A DNA stretch of 64,000 nt, taken from contig CANTFL010001117.1 of the NCBI GenBank assembly GCA_947650285.1, forward strand, positions 18,580-82,579, written 5' to 3'. Below, one piece after another: positions 1-64,000 of the stretch. Source of the DNA: Hyaloperonospora brassicae. Taxonomy: Eukaryota > Oomycota > Peronosporomycetes > Peronosporales > Peronosporaceae. A program made the translations under genes and the position numbers. Every line of letters starts with the position of its first letter. The stretch's first letter is position 1. The notes beneath the pieces were generated by a model that ran no database searches, was not told the origin of the DNA, and saw only the letters and a program-made list of their open reading frames with translations.

Positions 1-785
1 ACAGTGAGGTAAGTCCTGTACCGATCACGATGCCCGCCTGACGGCGCATCGTGATATTCGAACATGATGCATAGACTCAAATCAGTATGATCGGGAACGA
101 CGTCACGAGGCGTGTCGTCAGCAACTGCTGTGTTATAAAGCATACCATTGTAAGTCGTATACCGATACAAAGCGAAACGGTATGGAAGTGGCATTTCCGA
201 CAAGGATTTCCGGGATGAGTTTGCAAGATGACCCATCCAACGGAGGCAATTCGTATCTCCTGCGTACAACTTCCGCACGTCGTCGAGTAAAGGCGACGAC
301 GGCACGCTGACTGACAGCGCCGCAATAGTGGGCAAGGCCTCACGATCGACTGGTGTAGTTGGCTCGAAAACGGGCCGACGCGAAAGCGCATCAGCGACGA
401 CGTTCAGTTGTCTTAGTTTGTACTCCACGGAGACGTTGTACTCCGCGAAGAAAGACAACCACCTCGCCATTCGTTGCGAGAGGTGGGGACTGTTTACGGC
501 CGTGCGCAGTGACGCATGGTCCGTGTAGACAATGAACGGTCTATCTCCCAAGAGATACAATCAAATCTTAGGCAGTGCATAATTCATGGCAAGGCGTTCC
601 TTGTCATGCATTGGGTGATTGCGTTCGGCTGGCTGCAACTGACGCGATTGATAGCAGACGACACGCTCCACGCCTTCTGTGCCGTATTGCATCAATACAC
701 AGCCTATTGCAAAATTGCTGGCGTCACAAACCACATGAAATGGTCTGTCCTGATCTGCAATCGACAAGATGGGCGATTGCATCAA
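1..785 (-). pseudogene. Ty3/gypsy pol remnant: RNase H and start of integrase (runs off left edge)
   Basis: Read right to left, this is the C-terminal half of a gypsy polyprotein. RNase H begins with the VVCDAS motif (first catalytic Asp) shortly after position 785, continues through a DKERLAMNYAL block (catalytic Glu) and a VYTDHASL block (second Asp), and ends near ADALSRRP. It is followed by a linker and a His-rich EYHDAPSGGH segment resembling the integrase H2C2 zinc finger, which is cut by the window edge. One in-frame TGA at 561-563 interrupts RNase H where relatives have a short basic/hydrophobic stretch before YLLGD; otherwise the frame is open from 785 to base 1. The frame also breaks upstream, between 785 and 938. 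Family assignment rests on motif order. The element is certainly dead as read, unless a complete copy elsewhere supplies proteins. Confidence 0.88.
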
Positions 786-937
786 GTTTTATTGATACCG
801 ATAAAGGAACGCTGACAATCAGCGTTTCATGTCCACTTCACATTTTTCTTGACTAAACAAGAAGGATAAACAGTCATCTCAGCATAGTTTCGCGAGTACT
901 TATGCCAGTACACCGCTAGCTCAAGGATATTTTTTAG

Positions 938-1294
938 TCACTTGACATCGACTGGCACGGGCCAGTCGGTGAACGCCTTGATCTTTTCGGGATCAGCGCT
1001 CACGCCGTGCTTCCCCACAATGCACCCAAGAAGTGATATTTCGCTAGCCGCGAATATACAATTCTTGAGATTAGCACACAACTTGTGCTTGCACGTAGGT
1101 TGAAGAACCAGACGATCGTGTGTTCTGTGAACCTCAATGTCCGTCTTTCCGTCAATAGCCCGGATATGGACGATCCCATCTTCGAAGTATATCGGTGCAA
1201 AATCTTGCACCGGTCTCAACAGATTTGTGACGCATCTGTTGAAAGTAGCAGGGTCATTGCTCAGCCCTTGTGGCATCACTAGCCACTCCCACAA
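938..1294 (-). pseudogene. Ty3/gypsy reverse transcriptase, palm/thumb segment with altered active site
   Basis: This segment carries the gypsy RT motifs LVMPQGLSN, then PATFNR, then the catalytic box, then the block ending in KAFTDWPVP that precedes RNase H. The catalytic box reads Y-F-E-D at about 1178-1189 where functional enzymes have Y-x-D-D, so the first metal-binding Asp is Glu. It is in a different frame from the RT fingers just upstream (break near 1295-1300) and ends at a TGA at 938-940, after which the conserved linker to RNase H is still visible but frame-broken. Together with the flanking fragments it forms one collinear minus-strand pol. Confidence 0.87.
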
Positions 1295-1295
1295 C

Positions 1296-2110
1296 CTACC
1301 GCTGGGGAGTGCTCACTGCTGTGTACGGGATGTCCCGTTCACGCATGAGGATCTGATAGAACCCATACATCAGATCCATGGACGAAAAGATGGTACTCTT
1401 TGACATACCATCTATGATGACGTCCTTCCTCGGTATCGGCGTCGGAGCCGGTACCGTTGCAGCATTCAACTTGTTGAATGCGTGCACTATCCGCCACCCT
1501 CCTGTGGCCTTTCGCACACAGAAGTTCGGAGAGATATGAGGGGATGTTGATTCCCTCACATGGCCCGCTGCTAAGCGATCGGCAAAGAACTTGTCGATCG
1601 CTAGTACTTGTTTACGATGCAGTGGCCACTGCTTCATGAAACAGTACTTCGAGCCCGGTTTGAGCTCGATCTCATGTCGAGTGCCTTTGTCCTTAGGCAA
1701 CTCGCAAGGTACGAATTTAGGGAATACAGTCCTGAATTCGATCAAATCCTTATACAAAGGATTTGCCTAAAGTGACTCCCAGGATTGAGACATGTATCGC
1801 TCAATCCGAGTCTTCTCATCGAGGACACTTTCGCCCATCGGTGAGCTGCTGAGAACCCGTTCGCTCTCAGCAAATACTGTTGCCGACCGAATATCGGCCA
1901 CATACTCATCCTCCGTGACGAGTATGCAGATCTGCTTGACTTTGCCACTACGCAGATCACGCAAGAACCGTTTCGGTTCTAGCGTTGGCAACTGAGTTAC
2001 CTCCGAAGTTAACTTCGGAGGCTCAATCAGATCAAGCGTATAAGCGCCTACGCTTGATCCGTCATTAACCAAGACGTTCAACGTCTCGGTTTCTTCCTGG
2101 GAACTTGCTT
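1296..2110 (-). pseudogene. Ty3/gypsy linker and reverse transcriptase fingers
   Basis: From right to left: an acidic linker (EEASSQEETETLN), then a region with LVNDGSS and LDLIEPPKL typical of the spacer between protease and RT in oomycete gypsy elements, then RT proper. The RT part contains HEIELKPGSKYC, the RKQVLAIDKFFADRLAAG block, SPNFCVRKATGGWR (KKxGxWR motif), VHAFNKLNAATV and SSMDLMYGFYQI (first catalytic Asp). A single in-frame TAG at 1767-1769 separates the linker from RT, and the frame breaks near 1296. The stretch is packed with perfect inverted repeats (see findings). It is a dead relic but well enough preserved to be fairly recent. Confidence 0.86.
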
Positions 2111-2239
2111 CCTCAGGTTGCTGAGGGCCTGATCCCTCAGCAAGTGACTCTTAAGGAATTCCTTCCTCAAGTACATGGGGACTTATTCCCTCGACGTCTT
2201 CTGACTGTGGCTGTGCAACCACAGTCAGGCACCGATCAT

Positions 2240-2812
2240 CTACGGTCGACTCTCCAGTCGATCGAGGATGATCGTGTTGACCTTTGTGGCAGCAATTTTC
2301 TCACTTCTAGGATGCTGCCCGCTAGGCATACATCCATGTCCCGGTCCATTTGACTTATTCGAGTGGTGGATCTTCGGCGCTGCCTGGACTTCTGTACGGC
2401 CACCGGGAGCTTGCTTCGCAGTGTAGTGATCATCTACACTGAGGTCTTGTGCAGTCGTGACAACGACCGTACCGTAAGAAAGGCCGTCGCACTCACTCAC
2501 AATACACCCACACACCTGTGGACTTAATAAGACGTTCGTCAGATAGCCATCTGATCAACAAGCGGCAGGCATCTTTACGGATCGATGCTGCCAACACACT
2601 CTTGGCTCGTACTATCTGATCCAAGGTCATTTTTGAATGACATCACATTTGTCATTCAGATCTAGTACGATGAAATCTTCGTCGTAATATTCTCCCTATA
2701 ACGTGTAGGGAATTCCCAAATCACGTTTTGCAGCGGTTATCGATGCGCCTGTCGCTAGGCGCACCGTCATTCTCGCTAAGGGAACTACCGCTTCACGCAG
2801 TCTAAAATATAG
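2240..2812 (-). pseudogene. Ty3/gypsy aspartic protease and downstream linker (multiply stopped)
   Basis: One frame runs from about 2812 to 2240. It opens with MTVRLATGASITAAKR, followed by IPYTL, then YDEDFIVLDLNDKCDVI and WQHRSVKMPAAC, which match the layout of retropepsin domains in oomycete gypsy elements as I remember them (a beta-rich block, the FIVLDL...DVI block, then a W-R segment). It continues without a frame change into a linker with CGCIVSECDG and TAKQAPGGRTEV. Four in-frame stops fall in the protease part (after IPYTL, DVIQK, PWIR and MPAAC). The Asp-Ser/Thr-Gly active-site segment expected upstream is not recognisable. It precedes the RT fragment in the correct order on the same strand. 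Confidence 0.72.
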
Positions 2813-5800
2813 CCTTCAATGATTGGCTGAGGACAGAGTAGGATGACGCCCCACTGGCCACGGAGCCCGTAATGATAAGTCGTTCGTCACGTTAAACGTT
2901 AGATGGTGAGGGACTAGTTATTGCCCGGTGCGAACATACATAGATCATTTGTGTCAGGATGAATATTCGTCAAGAGATTTGCAAATTGTTTTGGATGTTG
3001 TTAGATCAGTAGGGCGTTGCGCCCTTACTGAAACGACCATTTTTAGGGTCCAGCCTCGCTTTGGGGATTTGCAATAGAAATAGACCCTCGTTATCCAGGT
3101 CTTCTGGCCATGGGCGGTCTTTTCGCTTACAACTGCGCAATTATGAGTGACGGATACTGCAATTATCTGCTCAGTGTCCTAATTTGTGATAGTGATAGCA
3201 TCTTTGCAGTTGATTGCCATTTCAAAGGCGTTTGTGTTCGCCCTCGACATATATGGTGTCTGTAGGCTCGTAAGCGCCTATTATTTTTTGACATGCTCCG
3301 AAGCGTAGATCGCACGAGAGTGTCGATAGATTTCCCAAGACAGCTGGTATCACACGATATATCTGAGAGCTCTTTCATGCGGCTCGTGATCAATAAGAAT
3401 GCACTATAATATTTTTTACCATGCAATTGGCAAATAACGCACGTGTTTGGCGTAAGCGTGAACATCACGTTAATTATGCTCGAGTTGATGGATCTCTATC
3501 TCATTCTTAAAATTTGCCCTGCCAAGATCACACGCTTTCCTGAGAACGCACGTGATGAGTCAGAAAGAACTCAACTCATCTGGTTCTTGCAAATTGAGAA
3601 AGGGGTCCAGTTTTCCGCACGACCTGCCAAGTTTGTGAATTAAAAAAAGCTTATATTTGTTCATCGTCGATGAGACAATCCTAGATGGTACCGTCTAACT
3701 CCTCAAATCATCTCAACAGGGACAATTTAACCACATCTTAGTATTTGGAGCATTCTTTTTTCATAGTCTCCAGCCGACGCGTGAACGTCGATTCTGCGTA
3801 CTTACACTGTTCCTGTCTCGACATCTAGTCCGGTGAATATCTTATAATCGTCAATAGGTCATAAACGATTGATCCTCACCTATTTATAGCTACAACAACT
3901 TGGTGATAATGTTAGAATGATGGTGCTTGTCAATTGAAGAAAGCATGACCCAGATAGCTTCTTCATAAAAGAACACACGCATTTGCCCTACCGCTTTTTT
4001 TCGGATTTGCTTTAATCGGAGTAGGTTTAAAGAGTGCGTACTAATGTTGGGCTTATTCATCGTCAAGCTTGTTCATGTTGGGCGGTGCGCTTGTTGTCCA
4101 TAAATGGCATCTACGTGCTCCCAGGGGAAACGGAGCAGCTGTATCTACGTAATCAATTACCATTTCAGAGCTTACTTTCTCTACAATCACTTTAGTCAGT
4201 GCAATGCTAAGTCTTTACACCGTACACAAGAAGGTAAACAATTAGGATGATACTTCAATCGTCGCGATTTTTTACCGGTTTTTACGATAATTAATTCCTA
4301 TATATCTTGTGTCTAATTCAACCGACTTTATTTACATACATAAAACAGATCCACAGATGCATCTACTAATTACCCATTGCACGCGTCTAGCATCAATTAG
4401 ATAGATGATAGAGATACAATATCGACATAGAAGTTCTTCTTTGGGTCATTTAAACTAAACTTCTATATCTAGTGACATTGTCAAACGAATATTCAACAAA
4501 TTTTTATTTATCAGCCCTTTATCATATATTGATTGTCATGTTATGGGCTTTCCGGTTACGAAAATCACCTCGTGTACCTCAAATTGCATGAATGAAGGGT
4601 AGGCATGCTTTTCTAAGCATCGTCTTTTGCGTTGGGTATGGCGCTCTTTGTCTAGTTTGTCGCAGTGATAGTGATGACAGTAATGCGTAAGGTCAAATAC
4701 TTAACGAAATCTTAGGATTAATACGAGTTATTTAAATCGTTTCTATGACGAGCACAGCGAGATCACGAAACAAAAAAATAGCCTTACTTTACTAAAAGCG
4801 ATTAGGATCTATCTGTTATAAAGTTGTAGCCTATTTATATGACGAGAAAAGGTTTGTCAAGTAACGTTGATCTTTGTAGTAGCAAGAAAATCGATATTTG
4901 ATTAATTTGGTAGTATGCCTGTGCTTAAAAGATATTCTTGAAGTATTTTTGATAAACCATGAAATACTTGCGTACCATATACCTGGTCATAATCAGCCTA
5001 TTACTATAATTTGATGCAGGTAGTTTTGATGTTAAGAGCTAGAATGATAAAAATCATCTTTGTAATTGCAAATAGTAATTGATAAGTACCATTTATTAAA
5101 TTTGGTCCACAGTTCAGATAGAAGCAATATAACGTAACAAAGTTTTTACAAATTAGCATTGCTCCCATCATGATGACAGCGCTTTTATCAGAGAACGTAC
5201 GCGTTTATACAAAGCAGCTAATGGGCTTATATAAGTCCTTTCTAAATTGATCATCATCTCATCCGCAGGCAAGAATGAATCATATGTGTATGATATGCCC
5301 AAGATTGTGATTTAAGTGTTTTATGAAAATGTGCACTCATGCTTTGTCATCATTAAATTTATAACCTGAATCCACTTTCTGTATTGTTTTCTTTTTCGCA
5401 AGATGTACATACATACACAAGATAAGTCGCACGAGTGTAGATTGTTTTGCTGATAATGCCATAAAAATATATTAGCGATTGCGTGATGGCGACAATCGGA
5501 GATCCGAGGTATCGCGTCGTTACTGAAATGAAGTGAGCCCATTTTTGTATACTATGTGCAGCGGTAGAATAATACGTACGAAAAATCATCAAGTTGTCAA
5601 ATTTTACATATGATTGCGCAGAAAGAAAGAAGCAGGTAGTCGATATACCGGATCATTGATGACAAATTTGCATGTGTGAAGTGAACAAGCTGGGTATGTG
5701 TTTAGGAGTTAATGGTTCAAGAATATTTCATTGTCGTACACGATTCCTTAATTAAAAGTTTGCTTGCGTGATGTATTTAAGCTGGATATATGTTTTTTTT

Positions 5801-8800
5801 GTGAAGCGCAAGACTGTATAATGTCAGATGCGAATCTTGCGGATGTCCTTTGGAGTATTTTTTCTTCGATTGACTGCGCTTCGACATGCTGCACGAATAG
5901 TTAACATGTTTACAAATATAAATCAATTTGATGATACTTCTTGTACAGAAATTTACACTGACATAAGCGCGAGTAGCGCATTCTGCATTTACACGTTCAA
6001 ACGTTCTGGTCGGTCCAGCCACTTTGTATCTATATAAAAAAAACTTTGTTTAATTCCTTCATTTTTACTTAGATTTGTATATATACTAACATGAGCGCGA
6101 ACCATGTAATTAAAACAACATTGGGTCAATTACAATTCTATCAAAATGATGATATATACAAATAGTTACCTTGTCGTGCAAATTATGTATAAATAAAAAA
6201 TATATGAAGTTTCATTCTGCACGGATCCATTATTCTGATTGGTATAGGCTTTTCACAAATTTAAGGAGCTTTTAAATTATGCTAGACGCGCCTATTGGGT
6301 AGTCACCAGTAGCAACATTCGACATATATATCAGAAAGGTGTAAATTACAACTGTAGGCAAGTTTGTCGTAAAACTCAAACCATATAATATATAATATAC
6401 TTTTGCCGAGCTTTCGTTTTGGAATCATTAATTTGTCGGTAACGTACAGGGTGGGGATGATTAGAGGCACCTGTCTACGAGTGTTAGTGTAAGTAAATTT
6501 GATGGTGTCAGTATTAGCAAGGATGACACTTTATATATAGCTCAGTTTTATTGCTCTTTCTCTTCAGGAATCCGAATCCGAAACCTTCAGCTGGCTTAGA
6601 CAACCAATGTATAAGAGTAGGTAGTTTGTGCGAAGCGACAGCATTATCAGAAGCTTATTCGACAAACCTGCTGTCAAAACGAGGCCATCTGGCGATCGAA
6701 ACACAACGCTATTAAAATAGTGGGTAAGGATATATTACACACCACGTGCGAAAATTATATATATATACAATAATTTCTATATAGAATCGGCAGATGAATA
6801 CAAGTTACAGTATGAGGTCGCCTGGCATTGTAATTGTGGCGCATTGGTTGTACCTTTTAATGTCACGCATTCTAAAGATCGACAACTTCTGTTCCACCTA
6901 GACAACTACATTTATTATATATTTTTTTAATTAGAAATAATTAGAAGTTAAAGTACAACAATACCTACATCACCATAGTTACCGACGTTAGATGCGTCAT
7001 AATATGGGTACCTAACAAGCTGACTAATGGGAACAAACTCATCCTAACATCTAACACTGCTGAGAAAAGTCATTTTAGTCTTGATGCTTGTGTCTCAACC
7101 ATAAGCCATTATGAGTTCTTAATAAACGTTATTTGGTAAATGAAACACCCATAAAGTACTTCATATCCAGGTGACGCGTTAGAACCGCGATGTACAACAA
7201 TCTTTCTGCATCAAATACGATGGGTTGAACGTAACGTATGATTATGGTTAGCGTGATAATGCGTACTATAAGTTTGTCATTTAGGATGATTTGTTTGGCA
7301 AAAGAAATTTTTAAATATAACAAATCACGTTTTGTATCGCGACGGAGTATATCCATTACTCAAGCAGATCACAAGTAATTTTGTGGTTTCTACTTTTTTT
7401 GATCACGAACGATAACGCGCATAATTGTTTCAGAATAAATGAGAAACCAAACATTTTTATATTCACAGAGGTTCCACGGAATAGTCGCATTTAGATTAAC
7501 ATTTCACCGGGAAACTGAGAAGCTTGTGATGACGACCTTTGCGATGGCATAGGATATCCTAAGTATGAATTAGTCTTTCGTCGACTCGTCATGTACAATC
7601 CACACGGACATGAATATGATAATGTCCTGACATAATGGATCTGAGTTAAAAATAGTGCACATTGATTATTATCCTTTATACAGCTTATGTCGAGGTGCAA
7701 AATCTTTCTAAGAGATAATAATACGCTTTTCATTTGCAGTGTCGCTCACCCATAGTGCTGAAAGGTTAAGGCAAAATACCCTCAGCAGAGTCTAAAACCT
7801 ACATACGTAAAATAATGTCTTTGCAACATCGCGACAATATCACATATTGATAACATGGCTGAGGAAGTGTTTTAAAGGTTATATTTGACGAAGACAAATG
7901 AATATATACTGTTATCTCGGTAATGAGAATATACTACTAAACTGTTATTGCGTGTTGTTGACCACGAAAAGTCACTTAATACACTATAGATTAGAGACAT
8001 ATTTAATATTTCACGTCGTGCAATTGGTAAATAATGAACAGTGATGCTATATGAAACACCACTTATTATATATTAAAGATTAAGCTCGATGATTTTATAT
8101 AATATTTAACGAAGCTAGCCGTGTGCCTCGCTACAGAAGATTCATGTCATCGATAAAGCATGCAGCGAGAGTCTAACATAGTTTGCTAGACAAATGATTA
8201 GATGATAATTGCGTCGTGTTCGCCTTAGGTGACTAAGGTTTTTGTATGATAATGAAATTTGTTAAGCCGAAATTGTTGCCACGGACCCCGCCTGGTAGGT
8301 TTCTAACGTTAAGGAGTCCCATAACGGTAAGTCTAATGACTACTGAACGAACGGCTCTAACCGATTAAATTATTCGTGTGATAAGTCAAAGAATGAGCGC
8401 GTAGTTTATTATTGTTAGAAGTTTTGGGGCGCGATTATACAGCCTAACTTTCATACAGTCAAACACACTTTTTAATAAAACTGAAAGAAGTTAAGCAAAA
8501 GCATAAACAATTTCCAAGGCCCGCTAATTTACAAGTTTAAGGCAATTAGAATATAAACAGTGCCGATCTTAAAGTGGAAATAAAAGAAAATTGATATCTG
8601 AGTATTCAGCACAGAAGTCCTATATTGCATGCAAATCTATTAATACTTGTTTGATGTTATTGCTTGGCTAATACCGCTCATCTATATTAACAATAAATTT
8701 TAAATAATTTCTAAAAGCCTATAATCATAAGGAGATAGGTAACATACCATCAGGTAAATATATTATTATATAATGCATCGAAGTACAATTTCAATCGATA

Positions 8801-24248: not shown

Positions 24249-26472
24249 ATGGACAAGTACAGCTCTCTCAGCTACCTCTCCGACGTATCAGGTAGGAGAG
24301 AACAGTGCTGTTATAGTTATCACTATACAAACACCATGTTATTAGCATATTTTAAAAATAATACACAAGCTCCGACATCTCCGACAAAGGGTAACTCAAT
24401 CGCATATTTTACAAACAACATCCAAGCTATAACATCTCCATCGAGGATGAGTCTGACCGACCTAGCACCTGACAACACAAAGCGTACCCGTGAGAACGCA
24501 GCGCGCTCATTTTTAAAGGTCCTCGAGCAGGAGTAGGTTACTTGGGAGTACCTGCAACAGTGCATGCAGCGCGAGAGGGCACCTCTCGCACTAGAAGCTG
24601 TGATGGACAAGTTTGGCATGTATATCGCGTTCAAGAAAAGCCGAAAGGGACAGCTCACAGCTCGACACTCGGTCATGCAATACTTTCGACAAGCCAAGAA
24701 TTGGCTGCTGGAGCAGTTCCCTCAACATCGAGCAGTGGTTAGAAAGAATTTCTCAAGAAAGGTCAGACACTCGAACGTCATTGCATGAAGCGTGAGTCAG
24801 GATCGTTTGTTAACAAGGCCTTAGCATGCACAAAGTCTGCTCTCAGAAAATGATGGAATACTTGTATTCAACTGCGATTACTAGTGCTGACTACCAAGAT
24901 GCGGCGCTGTTGTGTTTGCTTTGGTACCTATTTGGGCGTGCATCGGACCTTACAATGCTGCGGAAGGCAAAGCTGTCTATCGGCTCGGGCGACATAATCT
25001 TCGTCCGATTTATCCGAATTAAAACTTCTGAAGAGCAAGGTCTTTCACTTTTCCCTGACAAAGACTTCACCACATGTCCTCTGCTTGCCATAGCTCTCGC
25101 CCTCGTGACCCACTCATCGCCAACTATATCCGTGCTGAGTCAACTTCCTGAGCAGATGGTTATCTCACAGTCCATTTTAGCTCCAGCAACTCCGCTGATC
25201 GATTTGCTCAATCTTCCAAAGGCTGTGGTGTCTTCACAGGATATATTATCCACCTCTGCTAAGAAGGAGAACATCACAGATAACGCTCCTGGTGTACACA
25301 GCTACGTCAACCGTGTTCTTGATCGGGTCGCTGTAAAAGCTGGCGTATCCGAGCGCTTAACATCTCACTCTTTTCGGCGCGGAGGAGCGCAGCATGCAAA
25401 TGGGGCTGGATTGTGTGTAAGTGGATCTTCGACCGAGGCGCCTGGAATATGACAGCGACAAACGAGGCCTTCGCGTACGTTTTTAATACGGCTTTCAAAG
25501 ACCATAAGGTTACCCGGGTCTTGAGTGGGCGACACCTCGATACCGACGTATCTCTCCTATCTCTTAATGTCTTCGACTCCGGTACGCAGACAAAAACTAC
25601 AAACTGTTGAGACAGCGCTCCTTAATGCATCTCAAGGGCTCAAGACTACACAATACAACGTGAGCGAAAGAGTGATTGAAACCCTTATCACTTACCTGCT
25701 GATTCATTATCCATCGTTGAAGCAGCTAAATAAAGACGGACTTGTAGTCACACGTTTAAAAGCGTGTGTAATCCAGCAAGGTTCCTCCGTCAGTGAACTT
25801 GTAGATTGGTCTTCACATCTAACCTGCTACACGAAGACAAATTTACCACCAAATCCCATCAAGGTTTCAGACAGCACGATTGACATCACAAAGCATCCAA
25901 TATATCTTCGTCAAGCTTCATTGATTATGAAGTTAATTAAGGTCAACCAAAAGCTTTAATCTCGTGTCTCGATGATTGGAGCTGAGGTCTATAACAAGGC
26001 ACAACCAAAATATTTACATAAAAGAAGTGAGGGTAAAGACAAAGAACCACCCGCCAAACGTCGCCGAACGAGCTAGTTAACAAACCTAAAGGAAATCGGG
26101 TTTTGTTGGTATAACTAGGAACCCCGCCTATGGAATTCGTTTGATAGCTCGAGAAAACACACGAAATTCACCGCCAAACTTGTCGTTGCTTTCATGAAAC
26201 TGTTTTTTGCTGATAACTTTGTGCTTGATGAGAAGTTCCCGCAGTATCGAGAAGATGTGCTGGAATTAGGCGATGTCGCTGAAATGCAGTTACCTTCGTT
26301 TCTTGGCGAGCACAACATCAAGGCCCGCGGAGCACAAAACGTCCTCAAGTCCATGCGCAAGCTACAGAAAGCTGGTCATCTAAGCAAACACTTATAACTA
26401 TACTGACAACTTCAAGCCGCCGGGCTCATTGTAGATCCAACACCTGCGCATACTACAAACATCATCGGATAG
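24249..26472 (+). pseudogene. Crypton tyrosine-recombinase transposase (decayed)
   Basis: This is a relic of a Crypton, a DNA transposon that moves by a tyrosine recombinase. Segments in order are a variable N-terminus (ATG at 24249), a SAM-like DNA-binding part (MDKFGMY, ARHSVMQYFRQAKNWLL), and the recombinase core with the catalytic Arg in LFGRASDL (24937), H-x-x-R in HSFRRGGAQHAN (His 25366, Arg 25375), DRGAW, and the probable nucleophile Tyr in AFAYVFN (25476). A C-terminal extension follows with a basic PPAKRRRTS tail like a nuclear signal, then a conserved block around FVLDE and KARGAQNVL, ending near VDPTPAHTT. At least four frameshifts (about 24750, 24846, 25413, 25580) and in-frame stops (24534, 25957, 26074, 26116, 26395, 26404) disable it. 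The stretch 25525-26472 stays in one frame across its stops, which is why I join the last open frame to this gene. Element ends were not found. Confidence 0.85.
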
Positions 26473-26723
26473 ATTGTCAACTCGCAGTACCCATAGATGA
26501 TGGTCTTTACGCCGTTGTATACATGCTGAGTGATTCCGCACTAAAGAAGGAGAAATACAACAAGTACGTATTAACAAGATCGGCGAAACACTTGAGCTCT
26601 TCCTTACTCTCATGATACATCGTATATACATCATAGTACAACAATCCATTTTTCCCTTAATCGTCGAGGTCAGATCGCTTAAAATGTTTCTAGGACATGA
26701 CAATATCGTATTACGATGTACAT

Positions 26724-27150
26724 CATTTACGCACGGGGAACATGTCATCCGGGTAGCACACGGGCGGCATGTAGTCCACCATGTAGCTGCTTACCTGTCA
26801 TTGAATACAACATAACGATCAATGCGCAGTCAATAAAGCGCGTAATAATACACATGGAAACGGTGCACACGGGCGGCATGTATTCCACCATGTAGCTGCT
26901 TACCTGTCATTGAATACAACATAATGATCAATGCGCAGTCAATAACGCGCATATAAATACACATGGACACGGGTACACGTACGCAGCAAACGCGTTGTGC
27001 ACCACTTACGCACGGGGAACATGTCATCCGGGTAGCACACGGGCGGCATGTAGTCCACCATGTATCTGCTTATTTGTCATAAATACAACATAACGATCAA
27101 TGCGCAGTTAGTAACGCGCGTATAAGTACACACGGACACGGATGCACGTG
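26724..27150. repeat. Three-copy imperfect tandem repeat downstream of the Crypton
   Basis: The core unit begins CACACGGGCGGCATGTA and contains CCACCATGTA, TGTCAT, ATACAACATAA[C/T]GATCAA and TGCGCAGT. Copies start at 26757, 26866 and 27036. Copies 1 and 3 are preceded by the same ~33-bp leader (from 26724 and 27003: TTACGCACGGGGAACATGTC), which copy 2 lacks, so spacing is 109 then 170 bp. It could be the 3' region of the Crypton or an independent minisatellite. Confidence 0.85.
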
Positions 27151-39677: not shown

Positions 39678-39794
39678 AGCTGCCTCCACCACCACCGTCA
39701 ACACCACCGTCACAACTGCCACATCCAGCACTACCACCGTATCACGGTCACCACACCAGTTGCGCACGGCATATTTGACTGAAGCAACTAGAAC

Positions 39795-40856
39795 ATGCGT
39801 CTGGCCTACTCCGTTGCTACCGCTCTCGCCGCTGTTTTCGCTTCCAGTGGCGCGGATTCGACTGGTGTCACGGCGAATGCTCTTCCCGAGCCCCACGTCT
39901 CTCTTGTGGCCCGCGTGATGGACAGCAACGCCTACGACACGGACCCGCAGAGGCTTCTGCGACAGTCTTTTGGCGATGATGATTCGACGCTGTCTGTAGA
40001 CCGTGAGGAGAGAATCAACACTGCACATGTCTCCGACATAGCTGGGCCGATGACTGGAGAAATTGCTACAAGTGGCTTCCTTGCGAGAGCGTTGGACCAA
40101 TGGGCATTTCGGTCGGCCCGCTACGGCCAAGTTCTTGGGAACTTTAAGGAACAGCACAAGATCCTGGGAAAGCCGCTTAAGTGGTGGGATGAGATAATGA
40201 AGCGGCTGTCTAATAGATCTTTCATTGATAAGTTCACAAAATGGGCGAAGAGTTTGAAGGTCGAAGGTAAATCGATCGGTGACCGCTTTACGCAAGCTTT
40301 TCAGAAGTACACGCAAACCGCAACGAAAGGCGCTGCAGATGTAGTGGATGGTCAAGCGGTATGGACTCGTTTGGATGAGTGGGGCGGAAAGGTCGCCGAC
40401 GACGCCTCGTTGTATATAACGAATGCCCTGAAGACGATGGACGAAAGTAAGCAGCTTGCAGTGATTAAAATCAGTGTCAATGCTGTCGCTGGCGACTTAG
40501 CCAAACTCAAGGCCACGTGGAAGAAAGAATACGAACCACAGAAAGATGTGACTTCGATCGAATTGGCATACTCGAAGTTTGACTCCACGCGGATCGATAT
40601 CCACAATCACCTCAAAACGGTTATAGATGATCTTTCGAAAGTGGGCGAGGACAAGGTGGCCGGTGTACTCAAGACCAACTTCAAATCGCTTGATGATTTT
40701 TTCGAGGGCCTGAAGTTTCCCGCGTTCAAGAAATTTGCAGAGGGGGATGGAACCGCGGCTGCAGCTCTTCCTACGGTAAAGCTGCCAGAACCTCTTCCCG
40801 GTAGCCCGCTTGGAACACCTGGGACGCCCAAAGACAGCAACCCCAAGGTCGAGTAG
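39795..40856 (+). CDS. Secreted RXLR-EER effector protein (353 aa)
   Basis: A single uninterrupted frame from ATG to TAG. Residues 1 to about 20 form a signal peptide (MRLAYSVATALAAVFASSGA). RLLR lies at residues 53-56, followed by an acidic stretch (GDDDS) and DREER at 69-73, the canonical RXLR-dEER host-translocation signature at typical spacing. The effector domain (about 74-320) is mostly alpha-helical by composition, with Trp-containing helices around ALDQWAF, LKWWDEIMKRL and KFTKWAKSL; no unmistakable WY fold can be asserted by eye. The C-terminus (from about 320) is Pro-rich (PLPGSPLGTPGTP). Proteins of this class are secreted from haustoria and act inside plant cells against immunity; the specific target is unknown. 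The gene appears intronless, has its own initiator motif, and is flanked by LTRs about 1.1 kb on each side. Confidence 0.93.
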   Translation: MRLAYSVATALAAVFASSGADSTGVTANALPEPHVSLVARVMDSNAYDTDPQRLLRQSFGDDDSTLSVDREERINTAHVSDIAGPMTGEIATSGFLARALDQWAFRSARYGQVLGNFKEQHKILGKPLKWWDEIMKRLSNRSFIDKFTKWAKSLKVEGKSIGDRFTQAFQKYTQTATKGAADVVDGQAVWTRLDEWGGKVADDASLYITNALKTMDESKQLAVIKISVNAVAGDLAKLKATWKKEYEPQKDVTSIELAYSKFDSTRIDIHNHLKTVIDDLSKVGEDKVAGVLKTNFKSLDDFFEGLKFPAFKKFAEGDGTAAAALPTVKLPEPLPGSPLGTPGTPKDSNPKVE

Positions 40857-41984: not shown

Positions 41985-42386
41985 ATCCCTGTAACGGGGC
42001 AGCCCGTTACATGGAAATTGTCATTTAAAAGATAATGACAATAAAGAATATTAACGTAAATATTCTTTGTACAATATCACCAATGGTGGTGATATTGATG
42101 GGTCGACCAAAGAGTCTGCTCATTGGTTGATATCTTGATGATATCAACCCACCAATCGCCGCAAGACGCGCGCAATGAGTGGTGACGAGACGTCGTCATA
42201 CTTTCAGTTAGATTGGTATAATTGAGCTAAGTCAAACAGAGAGACAGTGGTTAAAGACTTGATTATATTAATATAACAGTTCTGCTTTTACCTTATCTAT
42301 GCTTCCTCGTTTGCCTCGTGTACGTCTGTTGGGCGCACATTACTCTTGCGTTAAGTTCACGCAAGGGTGTGCCCCGTTACAATCCC
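41985..42386 (-). mobile_element. Solo LTR with perfect 5-bp target-site duplication
   Basis: The LTR occupies 41990-42381 (392 bp) with exact terminal inverted repeats TGTAACGGGGC / GCCCCGTTACA. It is flanked by ATCCC at 41985-41989 and ATCCC at 42382-42386, a perfect target-site duplication, so this is a solo LTR left after LTR-LTR recombination. It is the reverse complement of the LTR at 53.7 kb and related to the one at 38.25 kb. Internal perfect hairpins include CAATATCACC/GGTGATATTG (42072-42097) and GGTTGATATC/GATATCAACC (42125-42149). Confidence 0.92.
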
Positions 42387-42580
42387 CCAACATCAGTGCC
42401 GTTTTATCCATCGAAGATATGTTTCAATTTTTACTTTAATACAGGGCAAAGCCTTAAAATGTAGTAAATTGGCAGGATTCATCTTAGTGTTAAAAAGTGG
42501 AAATAAACATCACTTGCACTTTGACCTAATCCGACACGTGCCTTGTTATGGCGTATTTGATTACAAGAGTTGTAATCCCT

Positions 42581-43480
42581 TGTAACGGGACTACACGTCG
42601 ACTGGTAGTCGACAATAGGTGTGGTTCACACAAGGGATGGGAACTCCTTTCAAGTAATATTATAACACAAGTATCAGTAGTTGAAGACTGATGTCTGTCA
42701 ACAATTGATTACGAGATCTTTTAATAGGTTTATTTAGGACATAAGTGAGTAGGTTATTTACTTTGTTCTACGGTTTTCTTTTAGGTTAAAAGAAGAAACA
42801 AAATTCAGTTTCCATAATGATCAACAAGAGACACGTGCCTCTCTGAGGCGTTTTGCGATCGTAAGGAAGTAGCAACGCCTTGCTAAGGCAGCTACTCTTC
42901 GTGCACTTGGTGCGATTGATTCTTTGAATAGTTTCGTCCGCCTGGAACAGGGACCGTAAGCTCTTTGAGCTTGTGTGACTCTTTGAGTCGGGTTCTTTGA
43001 ACCACCTTTTTGCTCTCGGAGCTGTTGACTCTTTGAGTCGGGTTCGTAGAACCAAAGTTGCTCGTAAGAGCGTTAAGTCTTCCTCTGACTTAAGAATCTG
43101 TGTAGCTCCGCTACAACGATGTCAAGGCATATACTCGTAAGCGCTTTGTGCTGGTGATTCATTGAATCGTTGAAGTCCCTTTACCCGGGACTTGAAGCTC
43201 AGTGAGCTTAGTAGACTCGTTGACTCGTGTTCTTGTTAAGGACGACGTATATCGTAGAGCTAAAGCCTTTCTTTGTCAAAGAAGCTGTTTTAGCTCCGCC
43301 GCGCTTGTTGTCAGGTCTTAAACTGCAGTCGCGTGATTGCGTAAATCACAGATTACAAGAAGCGGCACCGACATCGAAAAGGGCGACTCAGACATACCTC
43401 GTATTGGCGAGACTTCGCATATCAATCAACTTGTTTTCATCTCCTCGATTTTTTAAGAGGTCGTTACTTACTCCACAGCA
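42581..43480 (+). mobile_element. LTR-like element containing a micro-hairpin array
   Basis: It starts TGTAACGGGACTACACGTCG at 42581, the same terminal words as the LTR family, with hairpins GTCGACT/AGTCGAC and GTGTG/CACAC immediately inside. About 240 bp further, a run of tight stem-loops begins (about 42820-43240), including AAGCTC-TTT-GAGCTT (42958), GACTC-TTT-GAGTC (42977), GGTTC-TTT-GAACC (42991), GTAGC-TCC-GCTAC and AAGCTC-AGT-GAGCTT. A matching terminus on the right was not found, so the end is approximate. An inverted, partly matching copy lies at 63.79-64.0 kb, proving it is a dispersed repeat. I suspect a Ty1/copia-type LTR and leader, but no coding sequence supports it here. Confidence 0.6.
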
Positions 43481-53718: not shown

Positions 53719-54134
53719 TGTAACGGGGCACACCCTTGCGTGAAATTTACGCAAGGGTATCGTGCACCGACAAGCGTACACGAGGCAACCGAGGAAGCGG
53801 TAGGTAAGACAGAGGCAACACTGTCTTAATGAAAAAGTAGAACTGTTATATTAATATAATCAAGTCTTTAAACCACTGTCTCTCTGTTTGACTTAACTTA
53901 ATTATACTCATCTAATTGAGTGTATGGTGACGTCTACTCACCACTCATTGCGCGCGTCTTGCGGCGATTGGTGGGTTGATATCGTCAAGATATCAACCAA
54001 TGAGCAGACGCTTTGGTCGACCCACCAATATCACCGCTATCGGTGATATTGTTATAAGAATATTCAATATATTATTCTTTACTTGTCATTATCTCTCAAA
54101 TGACCATTTCCATGTAACGGGCTGCCCCGTTAGA
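53719..54134 (+). mobile_element. LTR of the TGTAACGGGG family
   Basis: It begins TGTAACGGGGCACACCCTTG and ends GCTGCCCCGTTAGA (terminal CA changed to GA). It is the inverted counterpart of the solo LTR at 41.99 kb along its whole length. Flanks are CTGCA (53714-53718) and CTGTA (54135-54139), a likely target duplication with one substitution, so it is probably also a solo LTR and older. Hairpins include CCCTTGCGT/ACGCAAGGG (53733-53757), GGTTGATATC/GATATCAACC (53974-53998) and an 11-bp stem at 54026-54051. Confidence 0.88.
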
Positions 54135-63790: not shown

Positions 63791-64000
63791 ATGTAGCGGA
63801 GCTATAAAGCACCTTAAGTCAGAGGAATACTTTAAATCTCATTGAGCAACTTAAGGTTCAGAGAACCCGATTCAAAGAGTCAACAGCTCCGAGAGTGAGG
63901 TTTGGTTTAAAGAACCCGACTCAAAGAGTCAACAAGCTCAGAGAGCTTACTGTCCCTGTTTCAGATGGACCAAACGATTTAGAAAATCAAACGCACATAG
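63791..64000 (-). mobile_element. Inverted second copy of the micro-hairpin array (cut by window edge)
   Basis: The reverse complement of this end aligns with 42.93-43.11 kb: a CAGGGAC segment, AAGCTC/GAGCTT, GACTC/GAGTC, GGTTC/GAACC, GCTC-TCG-GAGC-like, GACTC/GAGTC, GGTTC/GAACC, the TTCCTCTGACTTAA segment, and TAGC-TCC-GCTA, in the same order. Loops differ between copies more than stems. The element continues beyond the window. Confidence 0.8.

Follow-up and report, generated by a model that had tools for sequence, protein, structure and literature searches.

Micro-hairpins from leader to coding region in a Ty3/gypsy clade of Hyaloperonospora brassicae: selected folding or the mark of a copying enzyme?

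Some RNA viruses show genome-scale ordered RNA structure (GORS), an excess of folding along the whole genome, coding sequence included, and in small RNA viruses the packaging signals are dispersed as many short stem-loops over the genome. The genomic RNA of long terminal repeat (LTR) retroelements (yeast Ty1, Ty3, and HIV-1) is structured at its 5′ end, where PMC11381356 describes dimerisation, primer-annealing, and packaging signals and short palindromes. We analyzed a 64,000-nucleotide stretch of Hyaloperonospora brassicae DNA (contig CANTFL010001117.1; the window), in which an array of micro-hairpins at 42820–43240 belongs to LTRs of Ty3/gypsy elements. A hairpin excess, of a size typical for each family, was a property of one Ty3/gypsy clade among the loci sampled and was nearly absent from the others.

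Like the Ty1, Ty3, and HIV-1 leaders, the element had its structure concentrated at the 5′ end, whereas what is found here is a repeated micro-hairpin of about 5 bp around 3 nt, with 14 helices packed into about 296 nt, and hairpins go on through the coding region. As in GORS, an excess of folding ran along the whole element, coding region included, and the hairpin counts placed it beyond codon constraint; unlike GORS, it consisted of perfect, short, family-sized hairpins, belonged to a DNA-integrated retrotransposon, and showed G.U pairs in no clear excess. The many short stem-loops spread along the element recall dispersed packaging signals, but no shared loop motif was evident, and binding of Gag is a guess here. 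The reverse transcriptase (RT), RNase H, and gag domains were those of Ty3/gypsy elements of Peronosporaceae, with protein relatives at 72–89%. In the open-access literature searched, which lacks most subscription papers and all preprints, no description of hairpin arrays or of structure along the genome turned up for oomycete or LTR elements.

The hairpin array as part of an LTR

A sequence-only reading of the window had described about 18 micro-stem-loops in the array. Hairpins were counted as non-overlapping perfect stems of at least 4 or at least 5 bp with loops of 3–6 nt, and 300 dinucleotide shuffles served as control. Ten hairpins had stems of at least 5 bp (1.4 ± 1.1 in shuffles, maximum 5) and 15 had stems of at least 4 bp (5.3 in shuffles, maximum 11); with two more that carried 7-nt loops (TTAAGTC/GACTTAA at 43073–43093 and AAGTCCC/GGGACTT at 43173–43193), the earlier figure was fair. 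When the 64 kb was divided into 421-bp segments with a step of 105, the array was the hairpin-richest place (10 with stems of at least 5 bp, compared to a median of 2 and to 8 in the next-richest place elsewhere, near 1891). Its folding z was −3.6 for the given strand and −5.7 for the complement.

Genome searches with the array and with its second copy (best 40 of 1608 and best 40 of 1534 candidates, respectively) returned many array matches as pairs about 7.2 kb apart, which are the two LTRs of Ty3/gypsy elements. The copy L009 had 535-bp LTRs, 98.3% identical and 7.2 kb apart, and the copy L114, of subfamily C, had 475-bp LTRs that were 98.7% identical, its element running from LTR to LTR over 263–7846 of the locus; in both, the near-identical LTR pair with TG...CA ends flanked the element. 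The domains Retrotrans_gag, Ty3_capsid, and SH3_Tf2-1 were matched in the open frames of L114, and RVT_1, RT_RNaseH, and RT_RNaseH_2 in L150, itself a fragment 88% identical to L114. A candidate primer-binding site, the shared TTGGTAGCA..., came after the 5′ LTR in several copies, L009 and L114 among them. Among named proteins, the best relative of the element RT was from Peronospora matthiolae (89%), followed by many from Phytophthora, and named near-full-length relatives from these two genera showed 72–89% identity; one unnamed metagenome protein was 95% identical over 84%. No confirmed match beyond this genome was found in viral_contigs or genome_contigs, collections with few eukaryotes.

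In the window, a solo LTR of subfamily A occupied 42581–43115 (+), started with TGTAAC, ended with GCTACA, and was about 93% identical to both L009 LTRs by BLASTN. It was inserted into an older LTR of subfamily B, the left part of which lay at 42377–42580 (+; 89% to L092, an uninterrupted copy) and the right part at 43116–43300 (+; 97% to L092 over 43120–43272, and 68–91% over parts to 38 further loci). The bases beside the A LTR were CCCT before and ACGA after, not an exact duplication, and L092 represents the uninterrupted insertion site. Elsewhere on this contig, a locus that is 97% alike over 1.3 kb retained the A element's 3′ half. Because the window copy is a solo A LTR inside an older B LTR, the last third of the array (43116–43240) is part of the B LTR, which has hairpins of its own at 43156–43168, 43173–43193, and 43195–43209, while 42820–43115 makes up the 3′ half of the A LTR. 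The attribution of the array to an LTR element was borne out; its description as a single array did not hold, since it is a composite of two LTRs. The view was also too narrow: hairpins occur along the entire element and do not spare its coding region.

Directly upstream of the array, a 16-nt block at 42805–42820 (+), made of an INR-like motif, 2 nt, and an FPR-like motif and degenerate in the window copy, is the putative transcription start. PMC3599244 gives the oomycete INR as YCAYTYY, followed by a 2-nt gap and the FPR as MWTTTNC; by eye, the common copy TCAGTTC-CC-ATTTTGA had one mismatch to each. A looser 14-nt INR/FPR pattern was present in 58 of 93 loci (some overlapping), mostly once per LTR and directly 5′ of the array. 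Since the array lies directly downstream of this block in the 3′ half of the LTR, it is probably R-U5, and the leader would be transcribed from the INR-like block. The array also has the position of a genomic-RNA leader, in the 3′ half of the LTR and ending at the LTR end before the candidate primer-binding site.

The micro-hairpin array of the A LTR, the presumed R-U5, spanned 42820–43115 (+), with 14 helices that were mostly a 5-bp stem with a 3-nt loop. On this strand it contained, in order, GCCTC-TCT-GAGGC at 42837–42849 (GCCTT-GTT-AAGGC in some subfamily B copies); a three-part stem at 42863–42900 with an inner GCCTT-GCT-AAGGC, a middle GTAGC/GCTAC, and an outer AAGGA/TCCTT-like part that is imperfect in the window copy; GCAC-TTG-GTGC and ATTC-TTT-GAAT at 42902–42930, the latter being GATTC-TTT-GAATC in 46 of the 78 A copies; GTCC/GGAC enclosing CCTG-GAA-CAGG at 42935–42955, with an outer pair mostly G-C in A and A-T in B; and AAGCTC-TTT-GAGCTT at 42958–42972. 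A three-hairpin block followed twice, as GACTC-TTT-GAGTC, GGTTC-TTT-GAACC, and GCTC-TCG-GAGC at 42977–43023 and as GACTC-TTT-GAGTC, GGTTC-GTA-GAACC, and GCTC-GTAA-GAGC at 43027–43071. TTAAGTC-TTCCTCT-GACTTAA at 43073–43093, where subfamily B mostly has C-G in place of one T-A pair, and TGTAGC-TCC-GCTACA at 43101–43115, the 3′ end of the LTR, completed the array.

The block of about 50 bp at ~42977–43023 and 43027–43071 is a tandem duplication of sequence, present as a single copy in the subfamily C rows, and it qualifies the earlier claim that the array is not an ordinary tandem repeat. That the whole is an ordinary tandem repeat, or a set of chance palindromes, is nonetheless scarcely credible given the excess of hairpins over shuffles, codon-preserving shuffles, and other sampled loci; it is also contradicted by the conservation specific to stems, above that of loops and linkers, that the old variants show, and by the coding excess, both described below. 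In some copies, such as those on C4, C6, and C33, a two-stem unit was repeated two to three times at a spacing of about 51 bp; because it occurs three times in some copies (C4:27–155, C6:94019–94147, and C33:157470–157598 of genome G000), the array length varies between elements.

A 27-base pattern with two neighboring stems fixed and both loops free had 851 matches in the genome and none when reversed, and the first 100 or so matches in the list had many different loops. The array was therefore not confined to two recently copied loci, a restriction that the sequence-only reading had named as telling against its view. The inverted copy reported at the window's end was real: a partial second LTR copy (R-U5 part) lay at 63792–63996 (−), was 83% identical to the L009 LTR, and ran up to the point where window and contig both end. 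Its loop changes from TTT to TCT and from GTA to TCT were present as described, but its stems were only partly kept: in the 221 nt examined, four stems of at least 5 bp (0.8 ± 0.9 in shuffles, maximum 4 in 300) and two of 4 bp remained, and several others were broken.

Hairpins along whole elements and across families

Micro-hairpins were five to six times, and triloops 8–10 times, as frequent as expected all along L114 and L009. With stems of at least 5 bp and loops of 3–5 nt, summed over regions, L114 had 129 hairpins against about 20 expected and L009 had 111 against about 22. By loop size, L114 had 67 hairpins with 3-nt loops (7.0 expected), 40 with 4-nt loops (7.6), 28 with 5-nt loops (5.6), and 24 with 1-nt loops (7.0), while loops of at least 6 nt reached at most about twice the background; L009 was similar, with 69 loop-3 hairpins against 8.6. 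The loop-3 stems of L114 numbered 52, 11, and 4 at 5, 6, and 7 bp, which looks like a 5-bp minimum with chance extension. In the coding region, counts against synonymous-codon shuffles were 78 versus 18.0 in seven open segments of L114 and 38 versus 9.4 in six of L009, these totals being row sums and some L114 segments overlapping slightly in different frames. Coding loop-3 hairpins in L114 favored the codon phase in which third positions can pair with second ones (22 of 35).

Families for comparison were few, picked by eye from the 150 scored among 3546 RVT_1 candidates and the 150 scored among 1136 RVT_2 candidates, with one copy per family, and the clade statement rests on this handful. Gypsy elements of the same clade had 38 hairpins against 5.9 expected (L150), 31 against 5.5 (L149), and 18 against 6.1 (L146), and three loci 96.8–99.8% identical to L150 (L158–L160) had 25, 21, and 18 against about 3. 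Little or no excess was seen in four RVT_1-only, LINE-like loci (L147, L148, L151, and L152; 4–9 against about 6), in five copia loci (L153–L157; 3–6 against 4.8–7.0), or in two gypsy loci of other clades (L161, 3 against 3.1; L162, 2 against 3.1), and 12 host chaperonin loci (nine genes, some loci overlapping) stood at 0.84–1.71 of expectation. Protein identity to L150 was 26% for L161 and L162 and 56% each for L149 and L146. Stems of 5 bp with mostly 3-nt loops were found in L114, L009, and L150, and stems of 5–10 bp with mostly 3–4-nt loops in L149 and L146. The local folding z on the sense strand (dinucleotide shuffles) was −1.6 for L150 and −4.7 for L149, and about 0 for two host loci.

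The window itself held a Ty3/gypsy element of a second hairpin-rich family at 361–2356 (−; 90% to L149), with stems up to 9 bp and loops mostly of 4 nt, and 25 hairpins were counted in 1–3000 against 7.4 expected (three 1-kb bins). A copy resembling window positions 1014–2018 flanked L114. We rate it as about an even chance that the whole Ty3/gypsy clade is written from LTR to LTR, genes included, as perfect micro-hairpins of a size typical for the family, with 5-bp stems and 3-nt loops in one and up to about 8–10 bp around 3–4 nt in others, whether selected or stamped by the clade's own RT.

In the seven sequences measured, the mean hairpin spacing was 47–103 nt, and 14–29% of bases lay inside hairpins. 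That hairpins cover more of the transcript than the leader would suit a shield against silencing, in which local hairpins hide the element RNA from small-RNA-guided cleavage or antisense pairing, and strand-symmetric pairing would suit sense and antisense RNA alike; since the sampled copies of other retroelements that abound in this genome do without the feature, we consider this explanation improbable. Regularity of spacing was also considered and was not beyond random (P = 0.11–0.21 for L149, L146, and the window copy; 0.91–0.96 for L150 and L114).

Stem conservation, pairing, and competing explanations

The alignment of subfamily A comprised 79 LTR copies, 78 of them distinct, and excluded nine loci retrieved twice and the truncated copy at 63.8 kb. 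These copies are those that scored best against two queries and do not form a random sample. Variants in at least 8 copies were taken as old (source lineage) and single-copy variants as young. Old variants occurred at 0 of 146 stem, 11 of 47 loop, 13 of 103 linker, and 18 of 238 U3 sites (loop versus stem, P = 1.3e-6), whereas young variants were even (75 stem, 25 loop, 50 linker, and 132 U3; 0.51, 0.53, 0.49, and 0.55 per site). When the mask was slid round the array, none of 295 circular shifts matched so few stem or so many loop variants. The data support conservation of the array stems above that of loops and linkers; differences spread equally over stems and loops, which the sequence-only reading had named as telling against it, were not what the old variants showed.

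For pairing across subfamilies, 124 array sequences were compared (78 of A, 14 of C, and 32 of B including the window extension). Of 46 loci taken from longer match lists, the alignment of A, B, and C took in 44 (43 loci plus L114, which contributed both LTRs), and L093, the window's neighbor, and L131, without a match, were left out. Canonical pairs, G.U counted, made up 88.8% of 9228 cells compared to 65.2 ± 2.9% in 300 tree-based simulations, and fell to 25–38% when the arms were slid by 1–3 columns. Double-difference covariation was 2.56 compared to 0.81 ± 0.24 simulated (maximum 1.50); this leaf-level score and the paired fraction exceeded all 300 simulations, whereas event counts did not. 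Of the 64 pairs that could be compared between A and B, 7 had changed on both sides, and six of these were still paired (2.85 expected, P = 0.023): CG/TA at 42841–42845, TG/AT at 42902–42914, GC/TG at 42991–43003, TG/AT at 43059–43072, TA/CG at 43078–43088, and GC/AT at 42935–42955. Only three of the six went from Watson-Crick to Watson-Crick, the three TG states being wobble pairs. Several comparisons among A, B, and C were offset by loop-length changes, which inflates the one-sided changes. The covariation proposed as a check was thus found as both-sided, pair-keeping changes between subfamilies, but not as tree event counts above the null.

The orientation of stem pairs lowered RNA energy in L114 (P = 8.6e-6) and L150 (P = 0.0016) but not DNA energy (P = 0.58 and 0.34), and loops closed by C/T before and G/A after were preferred in L114 (91 of 129), L009 (83 of 111), and L150 (31 of 38), compared to 46–48% in shuffles. 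This closing preference was absent in L149, L146, and the window copy. Loop composition, tried as a strand signal, was inconsistent between members of one family, and energy with the arms exchanged was uninformative.

The leading explanation, to which we give an even chance, is that the single-stranded nucleic acid of the element is under selection to fold and that the array is its R-U5 leader. Selection on folding is favored because of the frozen leader stems, the length spectrum with its 5-bp minimum, the closing preference, and the orientation by RNA energy. The array would then be the R-U5 leader of a Ty3/gypsy family and the densest stretch of an element-wide property: the genomic RNA, and perhaps the complementary DNA (cDNA), would fold into a string of separate micro-hairpins, and selection for folding would maintain them. 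As to their use, we guess that Gag binding or packaging is the likeliest; the hairpins might be many dispersed low-affinity sites for Gag or nucleocapsid, chief among them the leader array, and might aid packaging or compaction.

Several results weigh against selection on folding. The loop-stem contrast, at P = 0.001 for variants in 5 copies and 0.01 for 4, was not significant at lower thresholds (P = 0.12 for 3 copies and 0.46 for 2), a weakening that mostly neutral low-frequency variants would produce. On the tree, compensatory events numbered 15 compared to 13.4 ± 3.7 under the null, with no excess; on internal branches above clades of at least 8 copies they were 2.1 compared to 0.6 ± 0.8, a weak difference; and pair breaks were more numerous than under the null (539 compared to 437 ± 21). 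A versus C gave one kept both-sided change (0.39 expected, P = 0.32), and C versus B gave five both-sided changes with four kept (3.39 expected, P = 0.25). At codon position 3 in coding pieces, stems were not clearly slower than other sites (0.084–0.111 compared to 0.103–0.114, with four near-identical references), and 44 copies of the leader and gag start showed no clear difference between stem and other sites. Among one-sided stem variants in the 78 LTR copies, G.U was not preferred (30, compared to 36 C.A), near-miss stems had nearly equal G.U/C.A ratios, and widely shared variants making G.U were not seen where about 5.6 were expected (P = 0.004), all of which speaks against a role in RNA alone. 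Neither the RNA-energy nor the closing-pair preference was present in the L146 and L149 families. Pairwise counts of G.U versus C.A, directions summed, were mixed (L114/L009, 51 versus 35; L150/L114, 14 versus 8; L149/window copy, 8 versus 15).

The lack of G.U tolerance would also fit palindromic sites that a dimeric protein binds in the double-stranded DNA of the LTR, with incidental hairpins, as would the YTC-NNN-GAR core common to many leader stems. The half-sites, however, vary from unit to unit, unlike what a single binding protein needs, and the same architecture continues through several kb of coding sequence, which makes such sites very improbable.

The most serious rival is copying: the RT, or repair of the cDNA, would fold back and copy one arm into the other, perfecting inverted repeats with no function needed, and stem and loop size would be set by the enzyme of each clade. 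Room for fold-back copying is left because G.U did not exceed C.A and third-position stems were not clearly slower. Strict Watson-Crick pairing that tolerates G.U no more than C.A, hairpins throughout the element including coding sequence, and restriction to one RT clade among sampled families with family-typical sizes would all agree with it. Divergence between L114 and L009, in the two directions, was 0.104 and 0.085 in stems, 0.207 and 0.192 in loops, and 0.167 and 0.169 in the rest; the slightly faster divergence of loops than outside hairpins also suits fold-back copying and could mean loop hypermutation. However, when the L114 hairpins were followed in L009, most changed stem pairs were one-sided (94, compared to 18 both-sided, 8 of these Watson-Crick); the leader stems are frozen, not hot, and a 5-bp minimum with chance extension resembles a required threshold, not a copied tract. 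We consider fold-back copying unlikely.

Other features of the window and implications

Elsewhere in the window, a 354-amino-acid open frame at 39792–40856 (+), which begins near a signal-peptide-like stretch and has an RLLR...EER arrangement, had no Pfam match at E 0.001; it resembles a secreted effector of the RxLR type. An open frame at 24814–25452 (+) matched Phage_integrase weakly (E 7e-5, short of the curated cut-off) and is perhaps a tyrosine-recombinase mobile element. Two direct repeats lay within 26714–27080, one of 108 nt in tandem at 94% and one of 88 nt, 279 bases apart, at 92%. An inverted pair of 214 nt, 88% complementary and 11.6 kb apart, was found at 42042–42255 and 53868–54081.

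Structured leaders are known in retroelements; what would be new, if true, and would amount to a strong natural experiment, is micro-hairpins that fill a whole element, respect the protein code, are sized by family, and are missing from other sampled retroelements. This would be a new way for the biochemistry of a retroelement to shape its whole sequence, a distributed structural code. It makes testable to what extent genome-wide folding is selected, for packaging, stability, or escape from silencing, and to what extent the copying enzyme imposes it. With hundreds of copies in one genome, the family offers unusual statistical power.
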